Of a stretch of DNA of 38,822 nt, positions 2,667 to 30,728 are shown one piece after another. The notes below the pieces were generated by a model that had not been told where the DNA came from, did no database searches, and worked only from the letters and a program-made list of their open reading frames with translations. Positions within the stretch are counted from its first letter, which is position 1, and every line of letters starts with the position of its first letter. The DNA lies in NCBI RefSeq assembly GCF_000373925.1, contig NZ_KB892747.1, forward strand, positions 1 through 38,822, given 5' to 3'. This DNA comes from Actinopolymorpha alba DSM 45243 (GTDB lineage Bacteria > Actinomycetota > Actinomycetes > Propionibacteriales > Actinopolymorphaceae). Both the position numbers and the translations under genes were made by a program.

Positions 2667-2714
2667 TGGTACACACCCTCTTTCCCTGAGAGCCGACCGA
2701 GGCCACCCGTCCAT

Positions 2715-2752: not shown

Positions 2753-2759
2753 TGGACCG

Positions 2760-4286: not shown

Positions 4287-5111
<825 letters not shown>

Positions 5112-5119
<8 letters not shown>

Positions 5120-15661: not shown

Positions 15662-16627
15662 ATGCCGAGTAGCGGGATCCCCACCAACGCGACTCCCTCC
15701 GCCGTCGACCGGCTGCGCGATCACCTGCGCGGGCGCCTCGTCGCCGCTGCCCTTACGCCGTTCCATCCCGACGGCACCATCGCCCGTTCGGCCGTCGCCG
15801 GCTACGCCGCCGCGCTGAGGCAGGGCGGGAGCACCGCGATCGCCGTCGGCGCCCACACCGGCAGGGGTGGGCGTCTGGGCGCCGACGACCTCACCTGGCT
15901 GGTCCGGGAGTTCGGCACTGCCTCGGAGCTTCCCGTCGTGGCCGGCCTCGCCCTGCCCGCGGGCGCGCCACCCGCCAGCGCGCTGCCGCTCGCGACCCGC
16001 CTGCGGGAAGCGGGGGCACAGGCACTGCTGGTCTGTCCGGTGCCGGGTGCCTCCCGCGACACGGTCGTCACGCTGCACAGGATTCTCGGCGAGAAGGTGG
16101 GCCTGCCGCTGGTCGCGTTCGTGTTGTACGAACGGGCGAGTGGCTGCCAGTACGACGCGGCGACACTGGCTGAGGTGCTCAGCCTCCCGTGGGTCTGCGG
16201 CGTCAAGCTCGCCCTGCTCGACGACGCGATGAGGTGTCAGGACCTCCTTGACACTGCGCGGACTGCGGCGCCGGACGCACTGGTGTTCACCGGCGAGGAC
16301 CGGATGTACGGCCCATCCCTGATGTGGGGGTCCCAGGCGGCACTGCTCGGCATCGCGGCGGCACTCCCCGACTGGTCGGTGGCGGTTCTGGACGCCTGGA
16401 CCAGCGGCGACGCCGCGGCGTTCGTGGCGGCATCGGACCGGCTGGACGCCCTGGCCCGCCTGACGTTCCGGGAACCCATGGAGGGATACGTCCAGCGCAT
16501 GGCCTGGATCGCCGCCTGGCAAGGCATTCTCCCCGCGGGGGTGGCCCTGGATCCGTACGCACCCGCCCTTCCCGACAGCGAACGCCGCACCCTGCTGGCA
16601 GCGGTCGACAACCTCGCCTGTAGATAG
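15662..16627 (+). CDS. Second DapA/NAL-superfamily aldolase
   Basis: A 321-residue protein with the same fold as the 12152-13210 product but clearly diverged. The likely Schiff-base lysine is Lys182 in VCGVKLALLDD, with Tyr156 in VAFVLYERAS. The N-terminal strand is LVAAALTPFHPDGTI, as in true DapA, but the substrate loop is IAVGAHTGRGG instead of GTTGE. The ATG at 15662 follows AGGGG closely; a shorter start is possible. Two divergent family members controlled by one locus may perform consecutive steps, for example dehydration then aldol cleavage of a sugar acid (inference). It is transcribed away from the regulator gene. Confidence 0.8.
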   Translation: MPSSGIPTNATPSAVDRLRDHLRGRLVAAALTPFHPDGTIARSAVAGYAAALRQGGSTAIAVGAHTGRGGRLGADDLTWLVREFGTASELPVVAGLALPAGAPPASALPLATRLREAGAQALLVCPVPGASRDTVVTLHRILGEKVGLPLVAFVLYERASGCQYDAATLAEVLSLPWVCGVKLALLDDAMRCQDLLDTARTAAPDALVFTGEDRMYGPSLMWGSQAALLGIAAALPDWSVAVLDAWTSGDAAAFVAASDRLDALARLTFREPMEGYVQRMAWIAAWQGILPAGVALDPYAPALPDSERRTLLAAVDNLACR

Positions 16628-17063
16628 CAGTCCAGTTCGTGAGGCAACCCCTCGCCGGCGAGTAGCCATTCAGGTCGACGGATCGCGGGCCGGCCAGCCG
16701 CACCCGATGGCTCCGGCCGACTCTCGGGTGGTCCGCTGCGGCAGCACCGAAGTCCGCGCGCAACATGTTTGACATCCGTAGTAACGTACCCTACTTTTCC
16801 ATACTAACGACTGTTACCGCGCTCGCCCCGGGCGCTTCCCCACTGTCCGGGCCAACACCACGAGCGAGTCCGGCCCGTTCTCCACCACCAGCCTGGACTC
16901 GGCTCAGTCAGAGCATTAGCGCAGACGCCCGCCCACCAGCCGTCGTGGGCACACACCGTCCTGCGACGCATGGGATGCCAGCGCTCCACGTCCATGACCC
17001 AGTCACCCTTTGAAGCGGGGTATCGATCGGACGCCGGAGTCTGGACCATGGAGGGAGGAGATC
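16628..17063 (+). other. 436-nt gap with a long leader
   Basis: No coding region is convincing here. The first 140 bases hold no feature I can support. A sigma70-type promoter lies at 16769-16797, and the roughly 260-nt leader up to 17064 ends in GGAGGGAGGAG. No riboswitch class is recognised in the leader. Confidence 0.5.
16769..16797 (+). promoter_or_regulatory. Promoter of the binding-protein operon
   Basis: TTGACA (16769-16774), a 17-nt spacer and TACTTT (16792-16797) in a locally AT-rich stretch. It precedes the five binding-protein-like genes. Confidence 0.6.
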
Positions 17064-18743
17064 GTGGCCGGGAGAATTCGCAGACTTGCCTACCTTGTGG
17101 CGGCGGGGGCACTCCTCACCGCCCCCGCATGCACCTCCAAAGGCGCGGGAGCCTCCGATCCGACGGAGCGCACCGTCAAGGTGGCCGCCGTCGCCTCAGG
17201 TCCGTTCACCCACGCCTTCAATCCACTCATACAGGGATACGGCAACGCCAATGGTTATGCCGGTTCCTCGATTTTCCAACCACTCCTTCAGGACGACTTC
17301 GCCAACGGCAAGAACCGTCCATGGTTGGCTCAGTCGTTCAACTGGGGCCAGGATGGGAAGACGTTGACGATCAACGTTCGCTCGAACGTTCGATGGTCCG
17401 ACGGAAAGCAGCTGACCAGTGAGGATGTCGCCTTCACCTACGATCTACTCCGAAGGTTTCCGGCGCTCAACACTCAGGGATTTCCGCTCGCCGGCACCGG
17501 CACCGCCGGATCACACACAGCCGTGCTCAGATTCACCGAGCCGGCGTTCCAGATCATGTGGTGGCGGGTGCCCATCGTGCCCAAACACCTGTGGGAGAAG
17601 GTCAGCGATCCAGTCACCTTCACCAACGCGAACCCCGTCGGCAGCGGACCTTACCGACTGAAGACCTTCACGCCTCAGGTCATCACGCTGGAGCGGAATC
17701 CGCACTACTGGCAGAAGAATCAGCCTGTCATGAAGACCGTGCAGTACATCTCCTTCGAATCGACCAGCAGTATGGTCGCGGGCCTGCGGGCCGGCGATCT
17801 GGATTGGATCGGGCCTTCGAGCATCGACCCGAGGCCCATTGCGAAGCATGACCCTTCCGGGATCGGCTATTCGGTCACAAAGCCAAGCCCAGCGGTCATC
17901 GTACTCATGCCCAACCTGACCAGATATCCGCTGGACCAGCCGGTGGTACGCAAGGCGATCAGTCTCGCGCTTGATCGGCAGAAGGTCACCGAAATCGGGT
18001 TGAGTCGTCAGAACGAACCAGTTCAGTCGCCAACCGGACTGGACATCGAAACGCGTAGTGACGTACTCGCACCGGAGTACCGGGAGCTGAGATACGGGCC
18101 AGGCGACCCGGCCGAGGCCGCGCGGGTGCTCGAGGTCGCCGGCTACAGAAGAGGACCGAACGGGATCTTCCGAAGCCCGCGCGGAAAGCCACTGAGCTTT
18201 GAACTCATGCTACCCACCACCAACCCCTACGCTGATCTCGTCCGGGCGGCCCAGGTGATGACTCAGCAACTGCGGGCCGCTGGAATCGAGATCAAGGTCA
18301 GGGCCAAGGCCCAGGTCGCGTGGCGCACCGACACCGGATTGGGCAACTTTGATCTCACCATGCGCCCATTGGGCGGCACGCTCTCGGTCTACGACCTCTT
18401 CGATCGGATCTTCAATCAGAAGCTGCTTCTCCCCGCCGGCAAGAAGGTCGAGCGCAACTACGAACGCTACAAGAATCCAGCCGCCGGACAATCGCTCAGG
18501 TTATACGCCTCGAGCCCACCCGACAGCGCAGGCGAAAAGCAGGCTCTCGCAGAGCTCCAACGCCTCATGGTCGAGGACGTTCCAGTCATCCCGATGTTCT
18601 TCAGCGCCGGCGTCAGCTTGTGGCGTACCGACAAGGTCACCGGCTTTCCCAGCGAATCAGATCCGTACGCCGTCCCGCTTCCCAACGCGGACAACTCCGA
18701 GATCGTTCTAGCCAGGCTTCGACCCGCACCCGCCCGAAACTAG
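17064..18743 (+). CDS. SBP_bac_5 family substrate-binding lipoprotein
   Basis: A 559-residue extracytoplasmic solute-binding protein. GTG at 17064 is chosen because GGAGGGAGGAG ends four bases before it, and the product then begins with a compact signal (AGRIRRLAYLVAAGALLTAP) and lipobox TAPAC with Cys23. The family fold shows in FNWGQDGKTLTINVRSNVRW, then SEDVAFTYDLLRRFPA, NPVGSGPYRLKTF and VRKAISLALDRQKV. It is the only protein of the five-gene run with an export signal. No permease or ATPase genes follow, so if it serves transport it must borrow components encoded elsewhere; the Opp-type system at 4283-8109 has its own binding protein. A 90-nt gap separates it from the next gene. Confidence 0.9.
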   Translation: MAGRIRRLAYLVAAGALLTAPACTSKGAGASDPTERTVKVAAVASGPFTHAFNPLIQGYGNANGYAGSSIFQPLLQDDFANGKNRPWLAQSFNWGQDGKTLTINVRSNVRWSDGKQLTSEDVAFTYDLLRRFPALNTQGFPLAGTGTAGSHTAVLRFTEPAFQIMWWRVPIVPKHLWEKVSDPVTFTNANPVGSGPYRLKTFTPQVITLERNPHYWQKNQPVMKTVQYISFESTSSMVAGLRAGDLDWIGPSSIDPRPIAKHDPSGIGYSVTKPSPAVIVLMPNLTRYPLDQPVVRKAISLALDRQKVTEIGLSRQNEPVQSPTGLDIETRSDVLAPEYRELRYGPGDPAEAARVLEVAGYRRGPNGIFRSPRGKPLSFELMLPTTNPYADLVRAAQVMTQQLRAAGIEIKVRAKAQVAWRTDTGLGNFDLTMRPLGGTLSVYDLFDRIFNQKLLLPAGKKVERNYERYKNPAAGQSLRLYASSPPDSAGEKQALAELQRLMVEDVPVIPMFFSAGVSLWRTDKVTGFPSESDPYAVPLPNADNSEIVLARLRPAPARN

Positions 18744-18833
18744 GCGACGCTGCCCGCGAATGCCATCAGGTGTCATGCCGAACGCTCGTCTTCTGACAGT
18801 GACGTTCCCGCCAGCAACGAGGAGGCCAGACCA

Positions 18834-20258
18834 ATGACAACTGCCGGCGAGCTACGAATCGCCTTCGGTCCGGACGCGCACCTCACAGTCGCCACCGACG
18901 CGACCAGAAAGCCGGTCGAAGCCTTGCTGTGGGGGCTCGGCGAAACGCTGACGCTCGTGACCCCACAGGGAACCATCAAGCCGTGGCTGGCCAAGGACAT
19001 AACCGCCCTGGACCCGCTCACCTGGCGGGTAACCCTCCGCGACAACGCGAGGTTCTGGGACGGCAGCCGAGTCACCGCCGAGGATGTCGCGGCGTCCTTC
19101 CGGCGCAACTGGTCGACGCAGATAGCCACCGACTTCATGCTCAGCAAACAGACACAGGTAAGAGTCGTGGACGAAACAACGCTCGACTTCACGACACCGG
19201 AACCCACCGGCGGCGTTCCGTACGCCCTGGCCTACCACCAGCTGATCGTGCACAAGGGTGACGGACTGGTGATGACCGGAGCCTATCGACCGGTCGAATT
19301 CGAGATTGACCAACGCCTGGTCCTCGAACCCTTCCGCCAGCACTGGCAGGGACCGCCGCGCATCAAACGCATCACAGTGACGTACGAAGATGATCCAGGC
19401 GTTCGAATCAACGCTCTGAAGGCCGGCGAAGTCGATCTTCTCTACGGGCTTCAGCCCGACGTGTTGTCCCAGCTCGGAGACGATGTGGACGTTCAGTCCT
19501 CCATCACCAACCGAATTCATTACCTTCAGTTCAATCTCAGCCGACCACCGCTCGACGACCGGTGCGTGCGCGAGGCGGCGTCGTTGGCGATCGACCGCCA
19601 GGCACTTCTGGACGACGTGATGGGAGGGTACGGCGAAGCGGCGTACGCCTTCTTTCCAGATAACGCCGGCGTCGAATCGGTCGCGGTCCAGTCAACGGAC
19701 GTCCAGCGGGCCGCGAAGCTACTCGACCAGGCCGGGTGGTTGCCCGGGGCTGACGGCGTCCGTTACAAGGGCTCCCAGCGGCTGGGGTTCACGCTCTACT
19801 CGTTTCCACAGCGTGCCGAGATGACGCGTCTCGCCCACTCCATCCGCGACCAACTCCGGCGGGTTGGCTACGACATCACCGTCGAGCAGGTCCCGAACAT
19901 CGGAGTCCGCACCGCGGGCCGTGACTTCGACGCCGCCATGCGTTCGATCAACACACTCATCTCGGGCGACCCCTATTTCCTCCTCGCCATCACCCTGAGC
20001 CAGGCCGGCCGCGAAAACACCGGAGGCTATTTCAACCCGGAGGTCGAGCGGCTTCTCAGTGACCTCAAACAGGAACGGGACGCCATCCGCCGGCAGGAGC
20101 TGTCCGGTCAGATCCAGGAGGAAGTTCGCGACGGGGTTCCTAACGTCTACCTCCTGGTCGCGCCTTTGATCACCGCTGCCAGAAGGGGAAAGCTCAAGGG
20201 CCCCAATCCGAGCCCGTTCACGCAGTACTTCATCTCGACCGAACTCTCCGTCTCATGA
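18834..20258 (+). CDS. SBP_bac_5-like protein without signal peptide (paralogue 1)
   Basis: A 474-residue protein starting MTTAGELRIAFG, with GAGGAGG eight bases upstream and no hydrophobic N-terminus. The start leads straight into the first strand of the binding fold, so nothing is missing. Family features follow: PWLAKDITALDPLTWRVTLR, DGSRVTAEDVAASFRRNW, then VVDETTLDFTTPEPTGG, VREAASLAIDRQALLDDV and the closing QIQEEVRDGVPNVYLLVAP. It resembles the next gene product along its full length. SBP_bac_5 domains do occur in the cytoplasm, for example the C-terminal sensor of SgrR, but that protein carries a DNA-binding domain and this one does not. A cytoplasmic ligand-binding or enzymatic role is inferred. 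The stop overlaps the next start as ATGA. Confidence 0.82.
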   Translation: MTTAGELRIAFGPDAHLTVATDATRKPVEALLWGLGETLTLVTPQGTIKPWLAKDITALDPLTWRVTLRDNARFWDGSRVTAEDVAASFRRNWSTQIATDFMLSKQTQVRVVDETTLDFTTPEPTGGVPYALAYHQLIVHKGDGLVMTGAYRPVEFEIDQRLVLEPFRQHWQGPPRIKRITVTYEDDPGVRINALKAGEVDLLYGLQPDVLSQLGDDVDVQSSITNRIHYLQFNLSRPPLDDRCVREAASLAIDRQALLDDVMGGYGEAAYAFFPDNAGVESVAVQSTDVQRAAKLLDQAGWLPGADGVRYKGSQRLGFTLYSFPQRAEMTRLAHSIRDQLRRVGYDITVEQVPNIGVRTAGRDFDAAMRSINTLISGDPYFLLAITLSQAGRENTGGYFNPEVERLLSDLKQERDAIRRQELSGQIQEEVRDGVPNVYLLVAPLITAARRGKLKGPNPSPFTQYFISTELSVS

Positions 20259-21676
20259 GTGGCGTCAGTGGGCAGCTACGGATTGCCATGGGCGACGATC
20301 TGACCATCTCCGCCAACGCAACCCACAAGGCTTATGAAGTGATCGTGTGGGGCCTGGGTGAGACACTCACCCGAGTGTCTCACGACGGCAAGCTCGTAGC
20401 CTGGTTGGCGAAGAGCATCCGAAACCTCGATCTGTTGACGTGGCAGGTCCGGTTGCGAGACAACGCGGAATTCTGGGACGGATCACCCGTGACCGCGGAG
20501 GCGGTCGCCCAGTCGTTCCAGAAGAACTGGACGGTGCAGGCCGACGTCGATTCGCTTATCAGCAACGAGACCTGTATCCGGGTTGTCAATCGCACGACGC
20601 TGGAGTTCAGGACACCTGAGCCCACGGGCAACTTTCCCAACGCACTCGCCTACCACCAGTTTGTGGTCCATAAGTCTGATGGTGCGGTGATGACGGGGCC
20701 CTACCGGCCAGTCGACTATCAGCCCGGGAAGGTTCTGGAGCTGGAGGCTTTCCCGCTCCATTGGTCGGGATGCCCGCCTATCGAGCGGATCATTGTCCAG
20801 GTGATCAGCGATACCGCCGCACGGATCCGCGCACTCGAGGACGACGAGGTGGACCTTGCCTATGGGCTGCCGCCAGAGGCACTGTCGCGGTTCGGCGACG
20901 GCTACGAGATCACATCGATTCCTTCCAAGAAGCTCCATTTCATTCAGTTCAACCACACCCGCCCACCGTTCGATGACCGTGACGTCCGCGAAGCGACCTC
21001 GCTCGCCCTGGATCGGGTGAGCCTTCTCGAGGCGGCGCTTGCCGGGCATGGCGCTGTCGCAACCAGCGTCTTTCCGCCCTACGCCGGAGTCGGAGTAGCA
21101 CCGATCCAGTCCGGTGATGTCGAACGCGCCGAGCGGCTGCTGGACCAGGCAGGTTGGGTGCGTGACCGGAACGGCTTACGCCACAAGGGCACGGAACGAC
21201 TCGCCTGCACCCTCTACTCGTTCCCGCAGCGACGCGAGATGACCAGACTGGCGCAGGCTGTTGCGAGCCAGCTCGGCCCAGTGGGTTACGACGTGACCGT
21301 GCAGGAAGTGCCCAACATCGTCCAGCAGACCAAGGACGGTGACTTCTCTGCCTCCATGCGGTCCATCAATTCTCTTGTCACCGGAGATTCCTATTTCCTG
21401 CTGCGCGCCATGCTCGGAAAGGGCGGCCGGTCCAACCAGGGCGGCTACTTCAATCCGGAGGTGGAGCAGCTCCTTGGTGACCTTCGCGTAGAAACGGATC
21501 CCGGGGCACGCCAGCGCCTGTCCCTCCAGATCCAGGAGACCCAACGACACGACGTGTCCAACGTGTTCCTGCTCTTCACGCCCATTGTCATGGTCAGGCG
21601 ACGAGGCCGATTGGCACACTTCGAACCCGACTGGAACAACGAGTACATCATCAAGAGCGACATGTCGGTCGCGTAG
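20255..21676 (+). CDS. SBP_bac_5-like protein without signal peptide (paralogue 2)
   Basis: A 473-residue paralogue of the preceding product, starting MSGVSGQLRIAMGDD inside the preceding stop codon (ATGA), which implies translational coupling. Shared blocks include VWGLGETLTRVSHDGKLVAW, FWDGSPVTAEAVAQSF, TPEPTGNFPNALAYHQFVVH, VREATSLALDRVSLLEA and YFNPEVEQLLGDL. There is no signal peptide, lipobox or membrane segment. Where the first copy has VDLLYGLQPDVLSQLGDD, this one has VDLAYGLPPEALSRFGDG, so the ligand-contacting hinge regions are similar but not identical. Tandem duplication is the likely origin. The two may form a heteromer or bind related ligands (inference). Confidence 0.82.
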   Translation: MSGVSGQLRIAMGDDLTISANATHKAYEVIVWGLGETLTRVSHDGKLVAWLAKSIRNLDLLTWQVRLRDNAEFWDGSPVTAEAVAQSFQKNWTVQADVDSLISNETCIRVVNRTTLEFRTPEPTGNFPNALAYHQFVVHKSDGAVMTGPYRPVDYQPGKVLELEAFPLHWSGCPPIERIIVQVISDTAARIRALEDDEVDLAYGLPPEALSRFGDGYEITSIPSKKLHFIQFNHTRPPFDDRDVREATSLALDRVSLLEAALAGHGAVATSVFPPYAGVGVAPIQSGDVERAERLLDQAGWVRDRNGLRHKGTERLACTLYSFPQRREMTRLAQAVASQLGPVGYDVTVQEVPNIVQQTKDGDFSASMRSINSLVTGDSYFLLRAMLGKGGRSNQGGYFNPEVEQLLGDLRVETDPGARQRLSLQIQETQRHDVSNVFLLFTPIVMVRRRGRLAHFEPDWNNEYIIKSDMSVA

Positions 21677-21710
21677 CGAACCCGGATCAGGCGGCAAGGA
21701 GGGATGCACG

Positions 21711-22889
21711 ATGGCAGGTCCACTGGCGTTTCCTGGACAATCGCGGCCGGTCGATCCCGTGGGCCTCGCCGAGGCCCGGGCGATCGGAATCGCGGGGCGG
21801 TCGCGCCAGCGGTCTTACACCAGGACGTTCGATCTCAGCGCCATACCCTCATACCAACCACGCCGGAGCGTCCACTCGGTGATCAGGCAATGGGGACTCG
21901 AATATTTCCGCACGACCGGACTTATGGAGGTCTGGGAGCGGGGATTTCGGGAGTACCATCCGGGCGCGACCTTCCAGGACAATCTGACCAGCTCCGCGGT
22001 CGCCTTTCCAGGACTGATCGCGGGGCAGGCCGACCTCGCTCCGATGGGACGCCCCGCGCTCTGGACCGAGCTCAAAGGCGCGGAGCGGCAACAAGCCGCC
22101 GCCGGTGGAGTCGGTCTTACCCCGCTCGAGGTCGTTGTCTGCACAGGGTCGTTCGATGTCAGTGGTTGGTCGTTCGCATTCGGAATCTTCGTCAACAGCG
22201 CCAATCCCATCTCTCGCCTCACGCTCGACCAACTCGACGGCATCTTCGGCGCCGAACGCAGCGGCGGCTGGAAAGGCCTGGCCTGGGACACCAGCGTGGC
22301 CCGAGGCTCCGACCTGAACATCCGAACCTGGGGCCAACTCGGACTCACGGGCCGATGGAAAGACAAGGAAATCAACGTCTATGGCTACAACCTGAGTTTC
22401 CACTTCCCCGACGAGTTCGACAAGAAGGTCCTCAAGGGATCACAGAAGTGGAACGAGCGACTCATCACCTTCGCGAACACGTTCGGCGCCAAGGCGGACG
22501 GCACGATGACCGTGGCCGGCGAGCAGATGGTCGACGCGCTCGCTGATGATCCCTACGGCATCACCTACTCCTGTATTCGGTATCTGAACCCACACATCAA
22601 GCCGCTTCCCCTCGCACGTGAGTCGAGCGGACCCTACGTCGACCTCACGCTGGAGAACGTCCAGAACCGCACCTATCCATTGTTCAGAGACATCTACTAC
22701 TACATGAGCTTCCAGCCCGACAGAGAGCGTGCACTGGTGGACCCGGACGCCGCTGAGTTCCTGCGATACATCCTCAGCCGCCATGGCCAGGAAGCGATCC
22801 AGGAGCACGACGCGAAGTATCTACCCCTGACCAGCGATGAAGCCGCCAAGCAGCTTCGTAGGCTCGAAAGCCACCTGCCTTGGCAGTGA
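21711..22889 (+). CDS. PstS-like binding-fold protein without signal peptide (paralogue 1)
   Basis: A 392-residue protein. The ATG at 21711 has AAGGAGGG upstream; the open frame before it adds only polar residues, so no signal peptide is hidden there. The N-terminal 45 residues hold SYTRTFDLSAIPSYQPRR, a block also found in the next protein. A PstS/PBP-like_2 fold follows: GLIAGQADLAPMGR, then FAFGIFVNSANPISRLTLDQ with LDGIFGAE, RTWGQLGL, and near the end YPLFRDIYYYM, FLRYILSRHGQEAI and KYLPLT. These match the phosphate-type binding-protein family, including its C-terminal GYLPL-like closing strand. Whether phosphate is the ligand cannot be told. Cytoplasmic location is inferred from the missing signal. 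Confidence 0.78.
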   Translation: MAGPLAFPGQSRPVDPVGLAEARAIGIAGRSRQRSYTRTFDLSAIPSYQPRRSVHSVIRQWGLEYFRTTGLMEVWERGFREYHPGATFQDNLTSSAVAFPGLIAGQADLAPMGRPALWTELKGAERQQAAAGGVGLTPLEVVVCTGSFDVSGWSFAFGIFVNSANPISRLTLDQLDGIFGAERSGGWKGLAWDTSVARGSDLNIRTWGQLGLTGRWKDKEINVYGYNLSFHFPDEFDKKVLKGSQKWNERLITFANTFGAKADGTMTVAGEQMVDALADDPYGITYSCIRYLNPHIKPLPLARESSGPYVDLTLENVQNRTYPLFRDIYYYMSFQPDRERALVDPDAAEFLRYILSRHGQEAIQEHDAKYLPLTSDEAAKQLRRLESHLPWQ

Positions 22890-22905
22890 CCGCGCGGGAG
22901 GAACA

Positions 22906-24063
22906 ATGGACTCTCCTACGACGTCAGCCGCTGACCGCTCGGCGGAGACAGGTCCGCACGGCACGAGCACGACCGCGGACTCGCTCGCCCTCCAGCAGGC
23001 GCGAGAGAGATGGAAAGCGGAGCGAGCGAGGAAGGCCTACTACACCAGGAGGTTCGATCTCAGTGGCCTCCCCGAATACCAGCCGGAGCAGGTCGTATCC
23101 GGCACGATTCGTCAGCGCGGTGTCAACTACATCGCCGACAGCGGATTGGTCGACCGATGGGAAGAGGGATTTCGGCGGCACCACCCGGACGTGAGGTTCG
23201 ACGATGACCTGAAGAGCTCGGTCCTAGCCCTCCCGGCTCTGTATACGGGCATGGCGGATCTGGCTCCGATGGGCCGCCGACTGACCTGGGACGAGCTCAC
23301 CGCGTACCAACGTGAACTCAACGCCGCGCCCTTGGAGATCACCTTCGCCACAGGGTCGCTTGACGTTACTGGTTGGACCTACGCCCTCGCCGTGATGGTT
23401 CACCAGAGCAATCCGATCTCGAAGCTCACGTTCAGGCAGTTGGATGGCATCTTCGGAGCCGAGCGGACCGGTGGCTGGAACGGCCTGATGTGGGACACGT
23501 CGGTCGCTCGCGGAGCCGAGGAGAATATCCGAACCTGGGGGCAGCTCGGGCTCGGCGGTGAGTGGGAGCAAAGGCCCATCCACGTGTATGGATACAACTT
23601 GAAGTTCCATTTCCCCGACGAGTTCGCACGGAAGGTCCTGAACGGCGGAGACAAGTGGAACGAGCAGCTCATCGAGTACGCCAACGAAGCGAAACCCGAT
23701 GGGAGTGGTCTCGTCCTCGCTGCCGAGCAGTTCATGGCCGACCTGAGTGACGACCCCTGCGGGATCGCCTACGGTAGCGTGCACGATGTGACTCCCCAGA
23801 CCAAGCCTGTGGCGGTCTCGGCAACCGACGAGGGTCCCTTCGTTCCGATCAATCTCGGCACCGTTCAGGACCGCACGTATCCGCTGACGCGCGATGTCTA
23901 TTACTACCTCGCTGGCGAGCCGGGCAAGCCGATCGAGCCGAGGCTCAGGGAGTTTCTCAGGTACGTCGTCAGCCGCGAGGGCCAAGAAGCCGTCCAGCAG
24001 GACGGAAAGTACCTTCCGCTGACCGCTGAGTGCGCTGCCGAGCAGCTCCGCAAGCTTGGGTAG
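22906..24063 (+). CDS. PstS-like binding-fold protein without signal peptide (paralogue 2)
   Basis: A 385-residue paralogue of the preceding protein, 16 nt downstream, with GGGAGGAA before ATG 22906. The first 60 residues are polar and charged (TTADSLALQQARERWKAERA) and lead to YYTRRFDLSGLPEYQPEQ, the shared N-terminal block. The fold shows in LYTGMADLAPMGRR, YALAVMVHQSNPISKLTFRQ, RTWGQLGLGGEW, YPLTRDVYYYLAG and FLRYVVSREGQEAVQ. Long stretches such as VYGYNLKFHFPDEF are nearly the same in both copies, pointing to the ligand site. It is the last gene of the five-gene run and converges on rnj through a strong hairpin. Confidence 0.78.
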   Translation: MDSPTTSAADRSAETGPHGTSTTADSLALQQARERWKAERARKAYYTRRFDLSGLPEYQPEQVVSGTIRQRGVNYIADSGLVDRWEEGFRRHHPDVRFDDDLKSSVLALPALYTGMADLAPMGRRLTWDELTAYQRELNAAPLEITFATGSLDVTGWTYALAVMVHQSNPISKLTFRQLDGIFGAERTGGWNGLMWDTSVARGAEENIRTWGQLGLGGEWEQRPIHVYGYNLKFHFPDEFARKVLNGGDKWNEQLIEYANEAKPDGSGLVLAAEQFMADLSDDPCGIAYGSVHDVTPQTKPVAVSATDEGPFVPINLGTVQDRTYPLTRDVYYYLAGEPGKPIEPRLREFLRYVVSREGQEAVQQDGKYLPLTAECAAEQLRKLG

Positions 24064-24090
24064 GCCCGCCTAGGGCGCGCCGATCACCCC

Positions 24091-24153
24091 GTTTCGCCGG
24101 CGAAACGACGCGACGGCGGACGCGGTCGTTGCCTGACCGCGCCCGCCGTCGCG
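24091..24153. terminator. Bidirectional terminator between the binding-protein operon and rnj
   Basis: Two stems lie between the convergent genes: the perfect palindrome GTTTCGCCGGCGAAAC (24091-24106), and a 19-bp stem with one mismatch pairing 24109-24127 with 24135-24153 around a 7-nt loop. Confidence 0.75.
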
Positions 24154-24164
24154 AGAGATCCAGC

Positions 24165-25856
24165 TCAGATCTCGACGACGACCGGGATGATCATCGGGCG
24201 GCGCCGGTGAGAGTCGCTCACCCAGCGACCGACGGTACGCCGGATCAGCTGCTGCAGTTGGTAGATGTCGTCGACGCCCTCACGGCCGGCCCGAGTGAGC
24301 GCCTCCTCGATCAGCGGGCGGACCGGATCGAAGACCGAATCGTCCTCGGCGAACCCGCGCGCCTTGATCTCCGGGCCCCCGGTGACCTTGCCCGTCACCG
24401 AGTCGACCACCACGATCACCGAGATGAAGCCTTCCTCACCGAGGATCCGCCGGTCCTTCAACGAGACTTCGGTGATGTCACCCACGGTCGAGCCGTCGAC
24501 ATACACATAACCGCACTCGACCTTCCCGGTGATCCGCGCGACACCATCCACCAGGTCGACGACCACGCCGTCCTCGGCCACCACCACCCGGTCCCGCCGC
24601 ACACCGGTCGCGACCGCCAGGTCGGCGTTGGCGCGCATGTGCCGGATCTCGCCGTGGACCGGAAGCACGTTGCGCGGCTTGACGATGTTGTAGGCGTACA
24701 GCAACTCCCCAGCCGAGGCGTGCCCGGACACGTGCACGAGCGCGTTGCCCTTGTGGATGACGTCGGCACCCCACCGGCTCAGGCCGTTCATGACCCGGAA
24801 GACGGCGTTCTCGTTACCGGGGATGAGCGACGACGCGAGGACGACCGTGTCACCCGTCTCGATCCGGATCTGCGGGTGGTCGCGCCCGGCGATCCGCGAC
24901 AGCGCCGACAGCGGCTCACCCTGCGAACCCGTCGAGATCAGCACCACCTCGTGTGGCGCGTAGTTGTCGAGCTCTCGCACGTCGACCAGGGTGTTGGGCG
25001 GCACTCTGAGGAAGCCGAGCTCCCCCGCGACGCCCATGTTGCGCACCATCGACCGGCCGACGTAGGCGACCTTGCGGCCATGGTCCACCGCCGCGTCCAT
25101 GACCTGCTGGACCCGGTGTATGTGCGACGCGAAGCAGGCCACGATGATCCGGCGTTCGGCACTGGCGAAGATCCGGTCCAGGACGGGCGTGATGTCGCGT
25201 TCGGAGATGGTGAAGCCCGGCATCTCGGCGTTCGTGGAGTCGACGAGGAAGAGGTCGACGCCTTCCTCACCGAGCCGAGAGAACGCCCGCAGGTCGGTCA
25301 GCCGGCGGTCCAGCGGCAGCTGGTCCATCTTGAAGTCGCCGGTGTGGAGCACGAGCCCGGCGGCCGTACGGATCGCCACCGCGAGCGCGTCGGGGATCGA
25401 GTGGTTGACCGCCACGAACTCCAGGTCGAACGGCCCGAACTGCACCCGCTGGCGTTCGCGAACGACGTGTCGCGGAACGTCCTTCAGCCGGTGCTCGCGG
25501 AGCTTGCTCTCGACCAACGCGAGCGTGAGCTGCGAACCCACGACGGGAATGTCTGGTCGCTCGCGCAGGAGATAGGGGACGGCGCCGATGTGGTCCTCGT
25601 GACCGTGGGTGAGGACGATCGCCTCGACCTCGTCGAGCCGGTCACGAATCGGCTCGAAGTCGGGAAGGATCAGGTCGACGCCAGGATGCCGGTCCTCCGG
25701 GAAGAGCACGCCACAGTCGACGATCAGCAGTCGACCCTCGTGCTCGAACACCGTCATGTTGCGGCCGATCTCACCGAGGCCGCCGAGCGGAATGACCCGG
25801 AGCGCGCCGGGTGGGAGGGCGGGAGGGGGTCCGAGTTCAGGATGGGGGTGGCTCAT
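24165..25856 (-). CDS. rnj: Ribonuclease J
   Basis: A 563-residue metallo-beta-lactamase/beta-CASP ribonuclease with endo- and 5'-exonuclease activity in mRNA decay and rRNA processing; usual length is about 555. The metal site HGHEDH is at residues 84-89, preceded by LLIVDCGVLFPEDRHPGVD. VVNHSIPDALAV and the following LHTGDFK add the next ligands. The beta-CASP part includes FLVDSTNAE, VACFASHIHR, ISTGSQGEP and VHVSGHASAGE, and the C-terminal domain starts near KVECGYVYVDG. The start overlaps the dapA stop by 4 nt. The dapA-rnj order is conserved in actinobacteria, including Streptomyces and Mycobacterium. Confidence 0.95.
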   Translation of the reverse strand: MSHPHPELGPPPALPPGALRVIPLGGLGEIGRNMTVFEHEGRLLIVDCGVLFPEDRHPGVDLILPDFEPIRDRLDEVEAIVLTHGHEDHIGAVPYLLRERPDIPVVGSQLTLALVESKLREHRLKDVPRHVVRERQRVQFGPFDLEFVAVNHSIPDALAVAIRTAAGLVLHTGDFKMDQLPLDRRLTDLRAFSRLGEEGVDLFLVDSTNAEMPGFTISERDITPVLDRIFASAERRIIVACFASHIHRVQQVMDAAVDHGRKVAYVGRSMVRNMGVAGELGFLRVPPNTLVDVRELDNYAPHEVVLISTGSQGEPLSALSRIAGRDHPQIRIETGDTVVLASSLIPGNENAVFRVMNGLSRWGADVIHKGNALVHVSGHASAGELLYAYNIVKPRNVLPVHGEIRHMRANADLAVATGVRRDRVVVAEDGVVVDLVDGVARITGKVECGYVYVDGSTVGDITEVSLKDRRILGEEGFISVIVVVDSVTGKVTGGPEIKARGFAEDDSVFDPVRPLIEEALTRAGREGVDDIYQLQQLIRRTVGRWVSDSHRRRPMIIPVVVEI

Positions 25857-26764
25857 GAGGTCAGTCCGGCCTCCTGCAAGTCAGCCTCGAGTTGGGTTAT
25901 CTGCTCGTCGGTCGCGGGTACGAGCGGGAGCCGCACCGCTCGCGACGGTATGACGCCCAGCAGCTCCAGTGCGGCCTTGGCCATGATCGCACCCTGGCTT
26001 CGCGTCATTATCGCTTGGTACGCCGGCACCAGGCGCCGGTCGATCGCCCGGGCGGTCGCAAGGTCACCGGCATCGACGGCCCGCACCATCGCGGCGTAGT
26101 CCTTGCTCGCCACATGGCTCACCACGCTCACGGCGCCCACCGCTCCGAGCGCGAACAATGCGAGGTTCCACTCGTCGGCGCCGCTGTAGTAGGCGAGGTT
26201 GGTGCGGGCGAGGACCTCCGTGGTGCCGGCGATGTCACCCTTCGCATCCTTCACCGCGACGATCCGGTCGTGCTCGGCGAGCTGGATCAGGGTCTCGGTG
26301 GCGATCGGCATGCCGGTACGTCCCGGAATGTCGTACAACATCACGGGCAGACCAGTGGAGTCAGCGACCGCGCGGAAATGCGCGAGAAGGCCCGCCTGCG
26401 GCGGCTTGTTGTAGTACGGCGTCACGACCAGAAGGCCGTGGGCCCCCGCCTTCTCCGCGTGTTGGGACAGCTCGATCGCGTGCCGCGTGTCGTTGGTGCC
26501 GGCGCCGGCGACGACCACGGCGCGGTCCCCTACCGCCTCCAGGACCGCCCGCAGGAGGGCGTCCTTCTCGGCGTCTGTCGTCGTCGGGGACTCCCCGGTC
26601 GTACCGCTCACGACGAGACCGTCGTTGCCGGCGTCGACGAGCAGGCTGGCGAGCCGCTGCGCGGCGTCGAGATCGAGATCACCGCTGGCCGTGAAGGGTG
26701 TGACCATCGCGGTGAGAATGCGCCCGAACGGCGCGGGCGGAGTGTGCGTTGAGCTGGGAGCCAT
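25853..26764 (-). CDS. dapA: 4-hydroxy-tetrahydrodipicolinate synthase
   Basis: A 303-residue lysine/diaminopimelate biosynthesis enzyme condensing pyruvate with aspartate semialdehyde. Diagnostic features are all present: GTTGESPTT (54-62), TPYYNKPPQ (115-123), Tyr144 in VMLYDIPGRTG, and the Schiff-base Lys172 in IVAVKDAKGD. This contrasts with the two related aldolases at 12152 and 15662, which lack the GTTGE loop. GAGG lies five bases before ATG 26764. It is the first gene of the dapA-rnj pair. In related genomes thyX lies directly upstream; here a synthetase gene in the opposite orientation intervenes. Confidence 0.95.
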   Translation of the reverse strand: MAPSSTHTPPAPFGRILTAMVTPFTASGDLDLDAAQRLASLLVDAGNDGLVVSGTTGESPTTTDAEKDALLRAVLEAVGDRAVVVAGAGTNDTRHAIELSQHAEKAGAHGLLVVTPYYNKPPQAGLLAHFRAVADSTGLPVMLYDIPGRTGMPIATETLIQLAEHDRIVAVKDAKGDIAGTTEVLARTNLAYYSGADEWNLALFALGAVGAVSVVSHVASKDYAAMVRAVDAGDLATARAIDRRLVPAYQAIMTRSQGAIMAKAALELLGVIPSRAVRLPLVPATDEQITQLEADLQEAGLTS

Positions 26765-26917
26765 GGAACCTCACGCTACCGGTTTTCCCCCGCGCATCGG
26801 CGGCCGCCGCGGTACGTCGCGCCTGGCCATCCGGGCGAAGGCGGCACCTCGCTGGAAGCTTGCCGGTCTGGACGGCCCGGCCGCGAAAGATCTGCCGGCC
26901 CGGCGGAACCACGCGGT

Positions 26918-27022
26918 ATGGTCGGACTCGTGAAACCTGCGCTGGCCGCCTCTCTTCGGTCATTCAGCACGACGACGCCGCACGTCGCTTCCGGCGACGC
27001 GGCGGCCTCGTCATGTCGATGA
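26918..27022 (+). CDS. Candidate threonine leader peptide
   Basis: A 34-codon frame, MVGLVKPALAASLRSF then STTTP and a polar tail, ending at TGA 27020-27022. Three consecutive Thr codons (ACG ACG ACG, 26969-26977) sit just before a hairpin. There is no Shine-Dalgarno. TATGGT at 26917-26922 would serve as a -10 box for a leaderless mRNA starting at GTG 26930, giving a 30-codon peptide with the same Thr run. The next gene is a threonyl-tRNA synthetase homologue, so stalling at the Thr codons would report low charged tRNA-Thr. The peptide is inferred; no homology is claimed. Confidence 0.5.
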   Translation: MVGLVKPALAASLRSFSTTTPHVASGDAAASSCR

Positions 27023-27075
27023 CCCATCGATAACGGCCACGCGGACGGCCCCGGGAGTGATCCCGGGCCGTCGCC
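26976..27075 (+). promoter_or_regulatory. Putative attenuator upstream of the ThrRS-like gene
   Basis: Three alternative pairings can be drawn. Hairpin A, 26976-26988 with 26994-27004: 11 bp with a 2-nt bulge, starting at the last Thr codon. Terminator-like hairpin T, 27044-27056 with 27061-27072: 12 bp with one bulged C and a GTGA loop. Antiterminator: GGCGACGCGGC (26993-27003) with GCCGTCGCC (27067-27075), 9 bp, excluding both A and T. A ribosome stalled on the Thr codons would open A and free the antiterminator. No T-run follows T. Confidence 0.45.
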
Positions 27076-27117
27076 TCGTGGGGTCGCTCCCTCACCACCA
27101 CCGAAGGAGCAAACCCC

Positions 27118-28518
27118 ATGTATCTCCACGATCCACGCAGCGACGAGCCCGGCGTAAGTCCTGCCGGGAGCTCCGCTGCCGCAGACCAGCCGGGCGCCCC
27201 CGCCGTCGACCACCGCCGGCTCGGCCGCGACCTCGGGATCTTCACCAGCGACGAACTCGTCGGGGCGGGCTTCCCGCTCTGGCTTCCCGACGGCGCCGCG
27301 ATCGTGGCCGAGCTCGAGAGGTACGTCGTCGAAGCCGAACGCCGGGCCGGGTACCGGCACGTGCGTACCCCTCCGGTCGCCAAGCGGGAGCTCTACGAGC
27401 GATCCGGACACTGGCAGCACTTCGGGCCCGACATGTTCCCGCCCATGCGGCTGGGGCACGCGGACCCCGCCGAGGACAGCGCCGAGAACGGCGCCGAGGA
27501 TGACGCCGCGCCACGCCGGCCCGGCCAGGACAACCGTCCGGGTGACGAGCTGCTCCTGCGGCCAGTCCTGTGCCCGCACCACGCGCTCGTCTTCCGGTCC
27601 CGGCTACGGAGCCACCGGGAGCTACCACTGCGAATCGGCGAGTTCGGCCCGCAGTTCCGGATGGAGCGCTCGGGAGTCGTGGGTGGACTGACCCGCGTCC
27701 GCGGCATGATCCTCAACGACGCGCACATCTTCTGCCCGCTGGACCAGGCGGCGGATGAGGTCGTTGGTGTCCTGCGCATGATCGACGAGGCGTACGACGT
27801 CCTCGGTATCAGCGCGGCTTACCACAGCCTCTCCCTGCGCGGACCGGCCGAGGCCGGTAAGTCGTACGCCGGCAGCGAGGAGATGTGGCAGCAGGCCGAG
27901 GTGGTGCTACGTCAGGCGCTGGAGCGGCACGGCGTGGCGTACCGCGAGCAGCCCGGCGAGGCGGCGTTCTACGGCCCGAAGATCGACATCCAGGTCTATG
28001 ACGCGCAGGGCCGGGAGTTCACCCTGTCGACCGTGCAGGTGGACCTCTTCCAGCCCGAGAGGTTCGACCTGGAGTACGCCGCACCGGATGGCACCCGGCG
28101 CCGCCCGGTCATGGTGCACCGGAGTGTGCTTGCCTCGATGGAACGCATGGTGGCGTACCTCCTGGAGGCGTATGCCGGGGCGCTGCCACCCTGGCTGGCA
28201 CCCCTGCAGGTCCTGGTCCTTCCCGTCGCGGAGGAGCAGGCGGGTGCGGCCTGGGCGGTCGCCCGGCGGCTGGAGGGCGCCGGGCTGCGGGTCGAGGTGG
28301 ACGATCGGGACGAGAGTCTCGGCGCGCGGATCAGGGCGGCCAGGCTGCGGAAGGTGCCGTACGTCGGAGTGGTCGGCGCCCGCGAGGCCGCGGCGGATTC
28401 GGTCACCGTACGGCTCCGCGACGGCCAGCAGGTGGGGCCGATCCGAGCGGAGCGGTTCGTCGACGGCGTACGGGTGAACGTCGAACAACGCCGCCGCGAC
28501 TCTGCGCTCGACGTCTGA
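27118..28518 (+). CDS. Short threonyl-tRNA synthetase homologue without editing domain
   Basis: A 466-residue class II synthetase of the ThrRS type. The TGS and N2 editing domains of full-length ThrRS (about 640-690 residues) are absent; it starts just before the catalytic domain (LGRDLGIFTSDELVGAGFPL). All three zinc ligands are kept: Cys152 in PVLCPHH, His203 in NDAHIFC and His334 in VMVHRS. Motif 2 reads EFGPQFRMERSG and motif 3 lies in HRSVLASMERMVAYL. The C-terminal 110 residues form the anticodon-binding domain (LQVLVLPVAEEQ, DDRDESLGARIRAARLRKVP). An acidic insertion follows residue 110 (AEDSAENGAEDDA). AAGGAG precedes ATG 27118. It may be a second ThrRS used under stress or inhibitor exposure, or may charge another carrier (inference). 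Confidence 0.85.
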   Translation: MYLHDPRSDEPGVSPAGSSAAADQPGAPAVDHRRLGRDLGIFTSDELVGAGFPLWLPDGAAIVAELERYVVEAERRAGYRHVRTPPVAKRELYERSGHWQHFGPDMFPPMRLGHADPAEDSAENGAEDDAAPRRPGQDNRPGDELLLRPVLCPHHALVFRSRLRSHRELPLRIGEFGPQFRMERSGVVGGLTRVRGMILNDAHIFCPLDQAADEVVGVLRMIDEAYDVLGISAAYHSLSLRGPAEAGKSYAGSEEMWQQAEVVLRQALERHGVAYREQPGEAAFYGPKIDIQVYDAQGREFTLSTVQVDLFQPERFDLEYAAPDGTRRRPVMVHRSVLASMERMVAYLLEAYAGALPPWLAPLQVLVLPVAEEQAGAAWAVARRLEGAGLRVEVDDRDESLGARIRAARLRKVPYVGVVGAREAAADSVTVRLRDGQQVGPIRAERFVDGVRVNVEQRRRDSALDV

Positions 28519-28553
28519 CCCACGCCGAACCGCGCCCAAATCTGCGGCTCGGT

Positions 28554-28607
28554 GGACTTGTCCGGAGATCTCCCGCTCAGATCGGAGCCGATCCTCCGGA
28601 CAAGTCC
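28554..28607. terminator. Bidirectional terminator between the ThrRS-like gene and thyX
   Basis: GGACTTGTCCGGA (28554-28566) pairs perfectly over 13 bp with TCCGGACAAGTCC (28595-28607). The loop contains a smaller GATC...GATC stem. It lies between two convergent genes. Confidence 0.75.
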
Positions 28608-28628
28608 GCTGTGGTCAGCTCTCCGGGG

Positions 28629-29411
28629 TCAGGGACCGACGCGACCGTTGCGTTCGAACGCGGCGTGGCTGATCGGCATCAGGCGCGCCCAGGCGGCTTC
28701 CATCTTCTCCGCCACCATCTCGATCTCGCGTTGCGGATAGGACGGGAACGTCGACTCCTCGCTGCCGATCCGCAGCGACAGGAAGTTCATCAGCGACCGC
28801 GCGTTGACGGTGACGTAGGCCGAGGAGTAGATCGTGACCGGCAGGACGATGCGGGCCACCTCACGCGCGATCCCGCTGTCGAGCATGCGTTGGTAAGCGG
28901 CGTAGGCCTCCGCGCAGACCTGGCGGGTCTCCTCCTCCACCAGCTTGTGCTGGTCAGGTGAGCCCGGAACGAACTGATAGTGCCCGGGCTTGCCTTCCTG
29001 GACGAGCTTGCGGTCAGGCCCTGGCACATAGAACACCGGGCGCAGCTCGCGATAGCGCCCGGACTCCTCGTTGTAGGAGGCCATCCGGTGCCGCATCAGC
29101 TCACGGAAGACGAAGATCGGAGCCTGGACGTAGAAGGTCATGGAGTTGTGCTCGAACGGCGAACCGTGGCGGCTGCGCATCAGGTAGTTGATCAGGCCCT
29201 TGGACCGCTCGGCATCGCCTTCGACGTCCTCGAGAGACTGCTCGCCCTTGGTGGACACCCGCGCCGCGAACAGCACGTCGGCATCGCGCGCGGTGGACCG
29301 GACCAGCTCGACGGTGACGTCGCTCCGGAACTCGACCGCTTCGTGCGCTCCCTCGACACCCGCTCCGGTGGGGTCCCCTTGCCCCTGCGAAGGTCCAGTC
29401 TCTTCGGCCAT
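28629..29411 (-). CDS. thyX: Flavin-dependent thymidylate synthase
   Basis: A 260-residue enzyme that methylates dUMP to dTMP using methylene-tetrahydrofolate, FAD and NADPH. The ThyX signature RHRxxSxNExSxRY is complete at residues 107-120 (RHRMASYNEESGRY), and HGSPFEHNSMTF (82-93) precedes it. ATG 29411 is chosen because AGGAGG lies nine bases upstream and an upstream ATG has no such site. The first 25 residues are a polar Gly-rich extension. In Streptomyces and Mycobacterium thyX is adjacent to dapA and rnj on the same strand; here the ThrRS-like gene separates them. Confidence 0.95.
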   Translation of the reverse strand: MAEETGPSQGQGDPTGAGVEGAHEAVEFRSDVTVELVRSTARDADVLFAARVSTKGEQSLEDVEGDAERSKGLINYLMRSRHGSPFEHNSMTFYVQAPIFVFRELMRHRMASYNEESGRYRELRPVFYVPGPDRKLVQEGKPGHYQFVPGSPDQHKLVEEETRQVCAEAYAAYQRMLDSGIAREVARIVLPVTIYSSAYVTVNARSLMNFLSLRIGSEESTFPSYPQREIEMVAEKMEAAWARLMPISHAAFERNGRVGP

Positions 29412-29513
29412 CACACGCCTCCTGCTCCTTGCCGTTCCCGCTTGCGCCAGCGTAGACCGGGCCACCGACAGGCCGGCCCACCCGGGCGCCGGGTCACGGT
29501 ACGGTTGTGCGCC

Positions 29514-30029
29514 ATGGCCGATCCAGTCCCGTCCTCCCGCGCACAGGTGCCCACGCCGCTGGCGGCGCTGAAGCCGATGCTCTACACCTTGCTGATGGCA
29601 CCGGTCCTGATGGCGGTGCCGGTGTGGTTCGCGATCAGCGGGTGGGCCGAGCCCGCGCTCTGGGCACCCGTCGCCATCCTCGTGCTCGCGCTCGCCGCCT
29701 TCGTGCTCGCGGAGTCGGTCGGCTTCGCGGTGCCGGCGATTCCGGCGGGCACGCCGCGGGAAGAGGCCCAGGGGACCGCGGTGAACGCCTGGCGGGCCCG
29801 CACGATGCTGCGCTTCGCGATCGTCGAGACCGTGCCGATGATCGGACTCGTGCTGTCCTTCGTGACGTTGAGCCGGTGGCCCTATCTCCTGGCGCTGGTC
29901 CTCGGCCTACCCCTCCTCGCGTACGAACTCCTCCCCACCCGCCGCACCATCGCCAAACTCCAGGCACAGCTCGAGCGCGACGGCGGTGTGTCGTACCTCC
30001 CCGAGGGCCTCGAAGGCCGGCGACCCTAG
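29514..30029 (+). CDS. Small integral membrane protein
   Basis: A 171-residue protein with about four membrane helices: LKPMLYTLLMAPVLMAVPVW, LWAPVAILVLALAAFVLAES, FAIVETVPMIGLVLSFV and PYLLALVLGLPLLAYELLP. It ends in a charged cytoplasmic-looking tail (RRTIAKLQAQLERDGG). There is no Shine-Dalgarno before ATG 29514, but TACGGT at 29500-29505 could be the -10 box of a leaderless transcript. It is divergent from thyX. No enzymatic motif is visible and the function is not known to me. Confidence 0.7.
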   Translation: MADPVPSSRAQVPTPLAALKPMLYTLLMAPVLMAVPVWFAISGWAEPALWAPVAILVLALAAFVLAESVGFAVPAIPAGTPREEAQGTAVNAWRARTMLRFAIVETVPMIGLVLSFVTLSRWPYLLALVLGLPLLAYELLPTRRTIAKLQAQLERDGGVSYLPEGLEGRRP

Positions 30030-30030
30030 T

Positions 30031-30053
30031 ACTCCAGCCGTAGATCGTGATCA
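30031..30053 (+). repeat. Left copy of a 23-bp perfect inverted repeat
   Basis: The 23 bases beginning ACTCCAGCCGTAGATC and ending TGATCA are exactly reverse-complementary to 30684-30706. The copy begins one base after the stop of the membrane-protein gene. With its partner it frames the PPOX gene (interval about 675 bp). Confidence 0.85.
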
Positions 30054-30115
30054 CCTGCGAACCAGCGCCACCAGCACCTGTCCCGAACCTGTTCCGGCAC
30101 AGGAAGTTGCTGGCC

Positions 30116-30511
30116 TCAGACAGAGAAGCCGGAGATCCTCTGCGGAATCACCCGGACGACTAGCCGGAGGACATCGTCCGACTCGGCGGGCGGGTCCTCG
30201 CCGAGGTACTTCTGCGAGAGCTTGCGCGGAAGCGACTTCTCCCGGTCCTCGATCAGTTCGACGGTGCCGCGGATGTCCACGGAGTGGTACGGGTTCTCGG
30301 TGTCGTAGACGGTGAGGCTGACCCGTGGGTCCCGGGTAAGGTTTCGGGCCTTCTGTCGACCGGCTGTGGTGGAGAACAGCACCGTGTCTCCGTCCCTTGC
30401 TATCCAGACCACCGAGGTCTGTGGACCGCCGTCCCGGTTCAGCGTCGCGACGGTGGCGAAGTTCCTCCCGTCCAGAAGCTTGCGTGTCTCCTCGTTGAAC
30501 GCCACCGACAC
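30116..30511 (-). CDS. PPOX-class (split-barrel) flavin/F420-dependent oxidoreductase
   Basis: A 131-residue split-beta-barrel protein of the pyridoxamine-phosphate-oxidase-like class. GTG 30511 (VSVAFNEETRKLL) is preferred: AAGGGTGAGG lies upstream, while a longer frame to 30598 adds an uncharacteristic Arg-rich segment. Typical blocks are NFATVATLNRDGGPQTSVVW, then LFSTTAGRQKARNLTRDPRV and the YHSVDIRGTVELIED strand. The KARNLxRDPRV segment is characteristic of actinobacterial F420-dependent or heme-utilisation-like PPOX proteins. The cofactor (F420 or FMN) cannot be decided by eye. The gene stands alone, flanked by inverted repeats at 30031 and 30684. Confidence 0.8.
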   Translation of the reverse strand: MSVAFNEETRKLLDGRNFATVATLNRDGGPQTSVVWIARDGDTVLFSTTAGRQKARNLTRDPRVSLTVYDTENPYHSVDIRGTVELIEDREKSLPRKLSQKYLGEDPPAESDDVLRLVVRVIPQRISGFSV

Positions 30512-30683
30512 GGCCTCACCCTTCTGTCCAGCAGTCCGTAGGTTCGCTACTTGCGTGGAACGGATGCGAGGGCTGAGTTCTTCCCGATGCAGGATCAACT
30601 AGCTGGCGCTGGCCCCACTGGCGGCGCCGCCACCAGGCCCGATCCCGAGCAAGCCACCACTACCGCCGGGCCCAGCCCAAGCA

Positions 30684-30706
30684 TGATCACGATCTACGGC
30701 TGGAGT
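30684..30706 (-). repeat. Right copy of the 23-bp perfect inverted repeat
   Basis: Exact reverse complement of 30031-30053. It lies 173 nt upstream of the PPOX start and 23 nt past the stop of the aminotransferase-like gene on the opposite side. Each copy read outward from the gap would encode M-I-T-I-Y-G-W-S, but no gene continues from it. Confidence 0.85.
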
Positions 30707-30728
30707 TACCAGAAGGTCGCCCAAACCG

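Follow-up and report, generated by a model that had tools for sequence, protein, structure and literature searches.

A block of five genes in a 38,822-nucleotide stretch of Actinopolymorpha alba DSM 45243 (contig NZ_KB892747.1; the whole stretch analysed is hereafter called the window) encodes substrate-binding proteins (SBPs) of two unrelated fold classes, four of which lack an export signal. The genes lie on the same strand, fill window positions 17064-24063 and comprise a lipoprotein of the SBP_bac_5 family (P0001), two further SBP_bac_5 proteins (P0002 and P0003) and two PstS-like proteins (P0005 and P0004; Table 1), as a preliminary description made from the DNA letters had stated. Binding proteins are usually regarded as extracytoplasmic transporter components. 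P0002, P0003, P0004 and P0005 may instead be former export proteins that now bind, in the cytosol, a compound brought in by an Opp system, a reading put forward tentatively, its chance being judged a little below even.

Table 1. The acquired island and its five genes, with positions in the window
Feature	Position	Strand	Basis
Acquired island, between DHDPS-like gene and RNase J-like gene (rnj)	16628..24164	.	GC, GC3, flank adjacency in relatives
P0001, lipoprotein SBP_bac_5	17064..18743	+	signal and lipobox LTAPAC in translation; PF00496 221 bits
P0002, signal-less SBP_bac_5, begins at mature domain	18834..20258	+	PF00496 234 bits
P0003, signal-less SBP_bac_5, tandem paralogue of P0002	20255..21676	+	ATGA overlap; PF00496 214.9 bits
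P0005, signal-less PstS-like (PBP_like_2)	21711..22889	+	PF12849 29.2 bits
P0004, signal-less PstS-like, second paralogue	22906..24063	+	PF12849 39.4 bits
DHDPS, dihydrodipicolinate synthase; GC3, GC content at third codon positions.

None of the four proteins has a hydrophobic N-terminus, export-signal calls being made by a hydrophobicity rule and reading by eye, and all four begin at the mature domain. Their in-frame extensions back to the upstream stop contain no hydrophobic stretch either; misannotated starts were therefore rejected as the cause, and the earlier observation that these proteins start directly in the fold holds. Among the SBP_bac_5 proteins of the set, P0001 has an export signal and P0002 and P0003 do not. 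As a genome-wide control, every PF00496 match was considered, giving 45 open reading frame (ORF) rows that reduce to 43 proteins (one protein accounts for two rows, and a 142-residue fragment was set aside). Seven rows fall below the hydrophobicity rule, and by eye five of the seven carry a twin-arginine lipoprotein signal; full-length SBP_bac_5 proteins without a signal thus number two of 43, exactly P0002 and P0003. Among proteins retrieved by SBP Pfam profiles from 49 model strains, about 1% are predicted to be cytosolic, according to a published survey (PMC9602780).

P0001, P0002 and P0003 all pass the PF00496 profile cut-off (32.4 bits), while P0005 and P0004 pass that of PF12849 (27 bits), with the fold taken from a model of P0005. 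P0002 and P0003 are 54% identical to each other, as are P0005 and P0004 at 53%; despite the numbering, P0005 comes ahead of P0004 in the DNA. The successive junctions are a gap of 90 bases, a 4-base overlap and gaps of 34 and 16 bases, in keeping with the tight or overlapping pairs described earlier, and this spacing makes a single transcript likely. P0001 has a GTG start with GGAGGAG ahead of it, and clear ribosome sites precede P0002, P0005 and P0004; the good sites attributed to all of the last four genes do not extend to P0003, which has none clear of its own. The single promoter-like site proposed ahead of the set was not upheld, as the TTGACA at 16769, upstream of P0001, lacks a -10 partner that passes the consensus scan, and the only match in the scan of 16500-24300 falls inside the set at 22880, which equals the chance rate.

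Sequence comparisons indicate that the five-gene set is a horizontally acquired insertion. GC content over the set is 0.625, whereas the left flank has 0.69-0.73 and the right flank 0.68-0.71, and GC3 of the five genes is 0.755-0.79, compared with 0.855-0.92 in four neighbours. In a draw of relatives, none of the 56 other genomes yields a match to P0002 (E 1e-60) or P0005 (E 1e-20); the draw includes five congeneric genomes and two others from the family. Among five relatives in which the region beside rnj was read, the set is absent there in all five; matches to the DHDPS-like gene and rnj lie 60 bases or less apart in three (G002, G004 and G005), and other genes sit between the two in G003 and G006. 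The genes left of the set (OppBCDF, an SBP, Gfo/Idh, an epimerase and the DHDPS-like gene) are ancestral to the extent that each stretch covers them. The case for insertion follows from these last two observations, namely that the flanks adjoin in three relatives without the set and that the left-hand genes are ancestral. An assembly artefact was rejected, the contig's other genes matching relatives at 64-91%. The space separating the DHDPS-like gene from rnj (16628-24164 in the window, and its equivalents in G003 and G006) is occupied by genes that vary among relatives, like an insertion hot spot.

The statement that the set has no permease or ATPase is correct for the island, but the window does contain OppBCDF at 4283-8109. 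Because these genes are ancestral, they are not obviously the partner of the set, and since they also stand beside an SBP of their own they were set aside as an unlikely one. Further left, at 975-4286, the window encodes two proteins of 585 and 508 residues without a Pfam match at E <= 0.001; the smaller is polysaccharide-deacetylase-like by eye, and its start is matched at 65-69% in three relatives.

A related set lies on another contig of the same genome, C49. Its order is a ChrB_N gene, an OFeT_1-like membrane protein, two signal-less beta-propellers, a signal-less PstS-like protein, a lipoprotein SBP_bac_5, OppBCDF (named by similarity), a 415-residue protein without a Pfam match, two signal-less PstS-like proteins and a second ChrB_N gene. 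One propeller was tested and matches TIGR02276, the other being its paralogue. All three PstS-like proteins on C49 lack a signal, and one of them (P0006) is 66% identical to P0005; P0001 is 60% identical to the SBP that precedes OppBCDF. The window block is proposed to be a partial sister of the C49 set, from which it differs in that the island contains neither propellers nor OppBCDF. The C49 contig may be contamination (the contamination value of the genome is 3.69). The ChrB_N genes bracket the set, at 1005-1766 and 15831-16517 of the C49 stretch, and with ChrA-/ChrB-like genes in Rhizobium they raise the possibility of a chromate link.

The same theme recurs in a different gene order on the conjugative plasmid pHiyo8-1 of Arthrobacter sp. 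Hiyo8, where about 29 kb carry relatives of the C49 set. Identities to C49 are 61% for the OFeT-like protein, 62 and 57% for propeller pieces, 52 and 46% for SBP_bac_5 proteins, 64, 76, 59 and 72% for OppB, OppC, OppD and OppF, 60% for the 415-residue protein and 71% for the PstS-like protein. In the record several of the plasmid genes are split, and the N-terminus is missing from one SBP copy. The one testable PstS-like protein is signal-less, and a split one also shows no signal by eye. OppBCDF is about 12 kb away on this plasmid; a permease conserved beside the set in relatives, which the preliminary description had weighed against its own proposal, is thus half borne out, being present in C49, distant on the plasmid and absent from the island. 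OppB and the OFeT-like gene flank pieces of PepM, Ppd and an iron-containing alcohol dehydrogenase (Fe-ADH) that share their strand, so that OppBCDF, Fe-ADH, Ppd, PepM and the OFeT-like gene at 22410-30762 of the plasmid stretch (L095) form a phosphonate-type group near the binding-protein set. The PepM-like gene scores 293.5 bits, below the curated cut-off of 319.55. Phosphonate biosynthesis genes were sought in the A. alba genome and no close PepM was found; PF13714 matches three places there, the best of which (C36) is 29% identical to the Arthrobacter PepM, and the PepM motif check was not run on the other two.

A homologue of P0002 on a Rhizobium plasmid (37% identical) carries a twin-arginine translocation (Tat) signal and precedes OppB- and OppC-like genes, named from their translations, which supports signal loss in P0002. 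In Rhizobium leguminosarum, the P0002 homologue, OppB, OppC and ChrA-/ChrB-like genes (names by eye) are adjoined by a family 1-like (FutA type) binding protein without a signal (L091:5747-6775), which has only five upstream in-frame codons.

The PstS-like family is far more widespread. A scan of GTDB contigs with P0005 alone gave no match, and a scan with an alignment of the five own-genome PstS-like members gave 69 loci from the best 80 of 180 relatives, located in Proteobacteria, Opitutaceae and other Verrucomicrobia, Acidobacteria, Eremiobacterota, a deltaproteobacterium and one Streptomyces. By the approximate counts of a simple ORF picker, 433 of the 880 gene calls in these loci cluster into the PstS-like family, with runs of up to 18, 14, 13 and 12 genes. 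Such consecutive runs, mostly with export signals, are seen in Gram-negatives (the whole of L040, L077, L024, L025 and many of L021-L089). One subfamily (the frame at L025:2183, and L027, L028, L029, L030, L040, L054 and L057) carries extra sequence at the N-terminus, in which an EYRD motif recurs. Among 75 neighbours hand-picked from about 150, the commonest domains are PepSY_TM (10), 2HCT (5), SDF (4), HisKA (4), TonB receptor (3) and MFS (3); the 25 commonest of 81 neighbour families include no ABC transporter domain, and SBP_bac_3 appears twice. Streptomyces scopuliridis has three consecutive members with lipobox or Tat signals. Literature searches, mostly at listing level, yielded no recognised description of either the Gram-negative runs or the five-gene set.

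In the Gram-negative and Streptomyces homologues, a signal is followed by the same mature start at which the signal-less proteins begin. Homologues with a signal at the same start, another observation that the preliminary description had counted against itself, therefore do exist for the family (in Gram-negatives, Streptomyces and, with a Tat signal, Rhizobium); since the upstream frames here encode no signal, they are read as evidence of loss and not of misannotation. A search for a hydrophobic 11-mer within the 130 residues before the domain covered 346 complete family ORFs from the 69 loci, the window, C49 and Arthrobacter. It left 41 without one, six of which are the window pair, three C49 proteins and one Arthrobacter protein. 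The other 35 comprise 28 with a further in-frame stretch or domain ahead, three cut ORFs and four with a weaker signal by eye; the 340 other family ORFs thus include no clear stand-alone signal-less protein, 31 being left undecided by the test.

Placement of these six proteins supports at least two origins of the signal-less state among PstS-like proteins. A quick tree of 129 rows requires five changes for the six signal-less rows. Approximately unbiased (AU) tests reject a single clade of the five own-genome rows (p-AU 6.7e-06), and also reject the clade of P0004, P0005 and P0006 joined with P0007 (3.4e-06), with P0008 (4.8e-04) or with the Arthrobacter row (7.8e-05); the count of at least two origins follows from these rejections. 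Such counts give no direction of change. Loss of the signal is inferred because exported members far outnumber the others and because the proteins begin where the mature sequence does. The signal-less genes have nevertheless remained under constraint, as rough ratios of nonsynonymous to synonymous change (pN/pS) are 0.35 for P0005/P0006, 0.46 for P0002/P0003 and 0.34 for P0007/Arthrobacter, both members of each pair being signal-less.

The AlphaFold model of P0005 (mean predicted local distance difference test, pLDDT, 93.5) is closest to PDB 4omb/4pqj, presumably PstS of Pseudomonas aeruginosa, by profile (E 2e-71) and by Foldseek (E 2.3e-29). TM-scores are 0.46-0.63, a range that perhaps reflects different domain closure. 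R...SGT, which is taken here to be the phosphate-binding loop motif and was mapped on the PstS of 4pqj, is kept in none of 350 PstS-like family rows, and with the PstS profile TIGR02136 P0005 reaches 76.7 bits and P0004 78.1, both below its cut-off of 206.6; by these sequence features, phosphate bound in the usual way is an unlikely ligand. P0002 and P0003 match NF045468 over nearly their full length at 231 and 215 bits (curated cut-off 600), and the best PDB matches of P0002 are 3t66 and 4ofj. The AlphaFold model of P0002, made from a two-row alignment (pLDDT 33.8), was not used.

According to the proposed mechanism, P0001, as a surface lipoprotein, would catch a peptide- or chelate-like compound and probably deliver it to an OppBCDF importer encoded elsewhere, for which that of C49 is a candidate. 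P0002, P0003, P0004 and P0005, having lost their signal peptides, would be retained in the cytosol as soluble binders, where they may store, buffer or pass on the imported compound or compounds, or keep a toxic one off its target. The envelope side would be left to P0001 and, in the sister sets, also to an Opp importer. A more specific version, considered quite improbable, casts the signal-less proteins as an intracellular ligand trap, a transferable module in which Opp import would be coupled to cytosolic holding on two unrelated, re-used classes of periplasmic type; on the Arthrobacter plasmid it might protect the host itself against a phosphonate-containing peptide, or store such a peptide. 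The phosphonate part of this idea arises because the Opp genes there run in one direction with PepM, Ppd and Fe-ADH.

The layout described at the outset, with two SBP classes together without export signals, is real, recurs as a theme in C49 and on the Arthrobacter plasmid, and is not a standard transporter arrangement. Of the ligand-capture, carrier, sensing and enzymatic roles that had been suggested, the last two are among several rival accounts of the set. The proteins could be cytosolic sensors that bind a ligand and signal it through contact with a regulator protein, comparable to the SBP-fold domains of SgrR or LysR regulators. P0002 does match the SgrR model weakly (18.4 bits against a cut-off of 476) and LysR/OxyR effector domains rank 43-50 among the fold neighbours of P0005, but Pfam searches matched a helix-turn-helix or other DNA-binding domain in none of the five proteins, unlike an SgrR-type regulator, and no regulator gene was read among the five genes; sensing is thus held to be unlikely. 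Cytosolic enzymes comparable to THI5/NMT1, MqnA or HisG appear rather improbable. The binding-protein fold has turned enzyme several times, and such repeated recruitment, together with constraint on proteins that lack a signal, would suit this account, whereas PF00496 and PF12849 are the only Pfam matches, the closest structures are phosphate-binding proteins and no catalytic motif was identified. The NMT1/THI5 profile matched none of the five (Pfam, E <= 0.001), leaving the enzymatic part of the earlier suggestion without positive evidence.

Export without a classical signal, or carriage by a partner, would leave the proteins as extracellular binders; this is thought very unlikely. The beta-propellers of the sister sets, in C49 and on the Arthrobacter plasmid, are also signal-less, as if the whole set were routed differently, but the lipoproteins of these sets retain ordinary signals, and no secretion gene was noticed in the island or sister stretches, though no profile search was aimed at one. 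Just as little likelihood is given to transferred orphan binding proteins in decay, with signal loss as the first step. The acquired island, its sporadic distribution and the split genes of the Arthrobacter copy would fit decay, as would the pN/pS of 0.61 for P0004/Arthrobacter (dS 1.78), the weakest support for constraint. The five ORFs are intact, however, pairs in which both members are signal-less are constrained, and the signal-less state has at least two separate origins. Decay aside, several points weigh against cytosolic ligand binding itself. All of the pN/pS ratios are rough, with dS above 1 and synonymous sites near saturation, and the AU test does not reject P0004, P0005 and P0006 as one clade (0.22) or P0007 and P0008 as another (0.098); the tests bear out neither the five origins of the quick tree nor, given the latter value, three. 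No protein in C49:1-20000 or the Arthrobacter stretches read exceeds 26% identity to P0002 or P0003, so the signal-less SBP_bac_5 pair comes from one genome. The exact five-gene order, whose recurrence in other actinobacteria the preliminary description had asked about, was found nowhere in 56 plus 395 other genomes at strict E-values, only the theme being shared. Searches at the same stringency with P0002 (57 and 396 genomes), P0005 (57), A1 (396) and the C49 415-residue protein (396), counting the own genome, returned the own genome only, the 396-genome draws having four candidates scored per genome among the matches listed. Ligand binding by the set is putative, the cytosolic location is predicted from the primary structure, and the permease partner is suggested by the identity of P0001 to the C49 SBP (60%).

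Cytosolic re-use of the four proteins would have wider meaning. Four signal-less binding proteins of two fold classes stand side by side in an acquired block, and relatives repeat the loss under constraint. If a ligand is bound inside the cell, the set would be well suited to studying how transport proteins come to serve as carriers or traps within the cell, and the long exported PstS-like runs of Gram-negatives join the same question.

Comparison with known systems places the set near, but outside, several described types. PstS (4omb/4pqj) is the nearest solved relative of the PstS-like proteins by profile and fold, but R...SGT is lost, the TIGR02136 cut-off is missed, the window pair is signal-less and the island has no PstCAB. 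Similarly, P0002 and P0003 resemble NikA/Opp5A-type SBP_bac_5 proteins (PDB 3t66; SaNikA, 4ofj) through their nearly full-length match to NF045468, but fall far under its cut-off of 600, lack signals and have no permease alongside. The tandem runs of Gram-negatives, which reach 18 genes, belong to the same family as P0004 and P0005 and differ in having exported members and PepSY_TM, 2HCT, SDF and TonB genes, not SBP_bac_5, as neighbours. A further parallel comes from cyanobacteria, in which FutA1 and FutA2 are reported to be paralogous binding proteins in two compartments, with genes away from the permease (PMC6254336). In that report, Synechocystis FutA1 is described as a mainly intracellular ferric-binding protein beside the periplasmic FutA2, and its signal exported some green fluorescent protein (PMC6254336). 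The FutA proteins are of a different family and have signal peptides, unlike the two unrelated signal-less classes found here; FutA1 is a precedent and counts in favour of cytosolic binding proteins.

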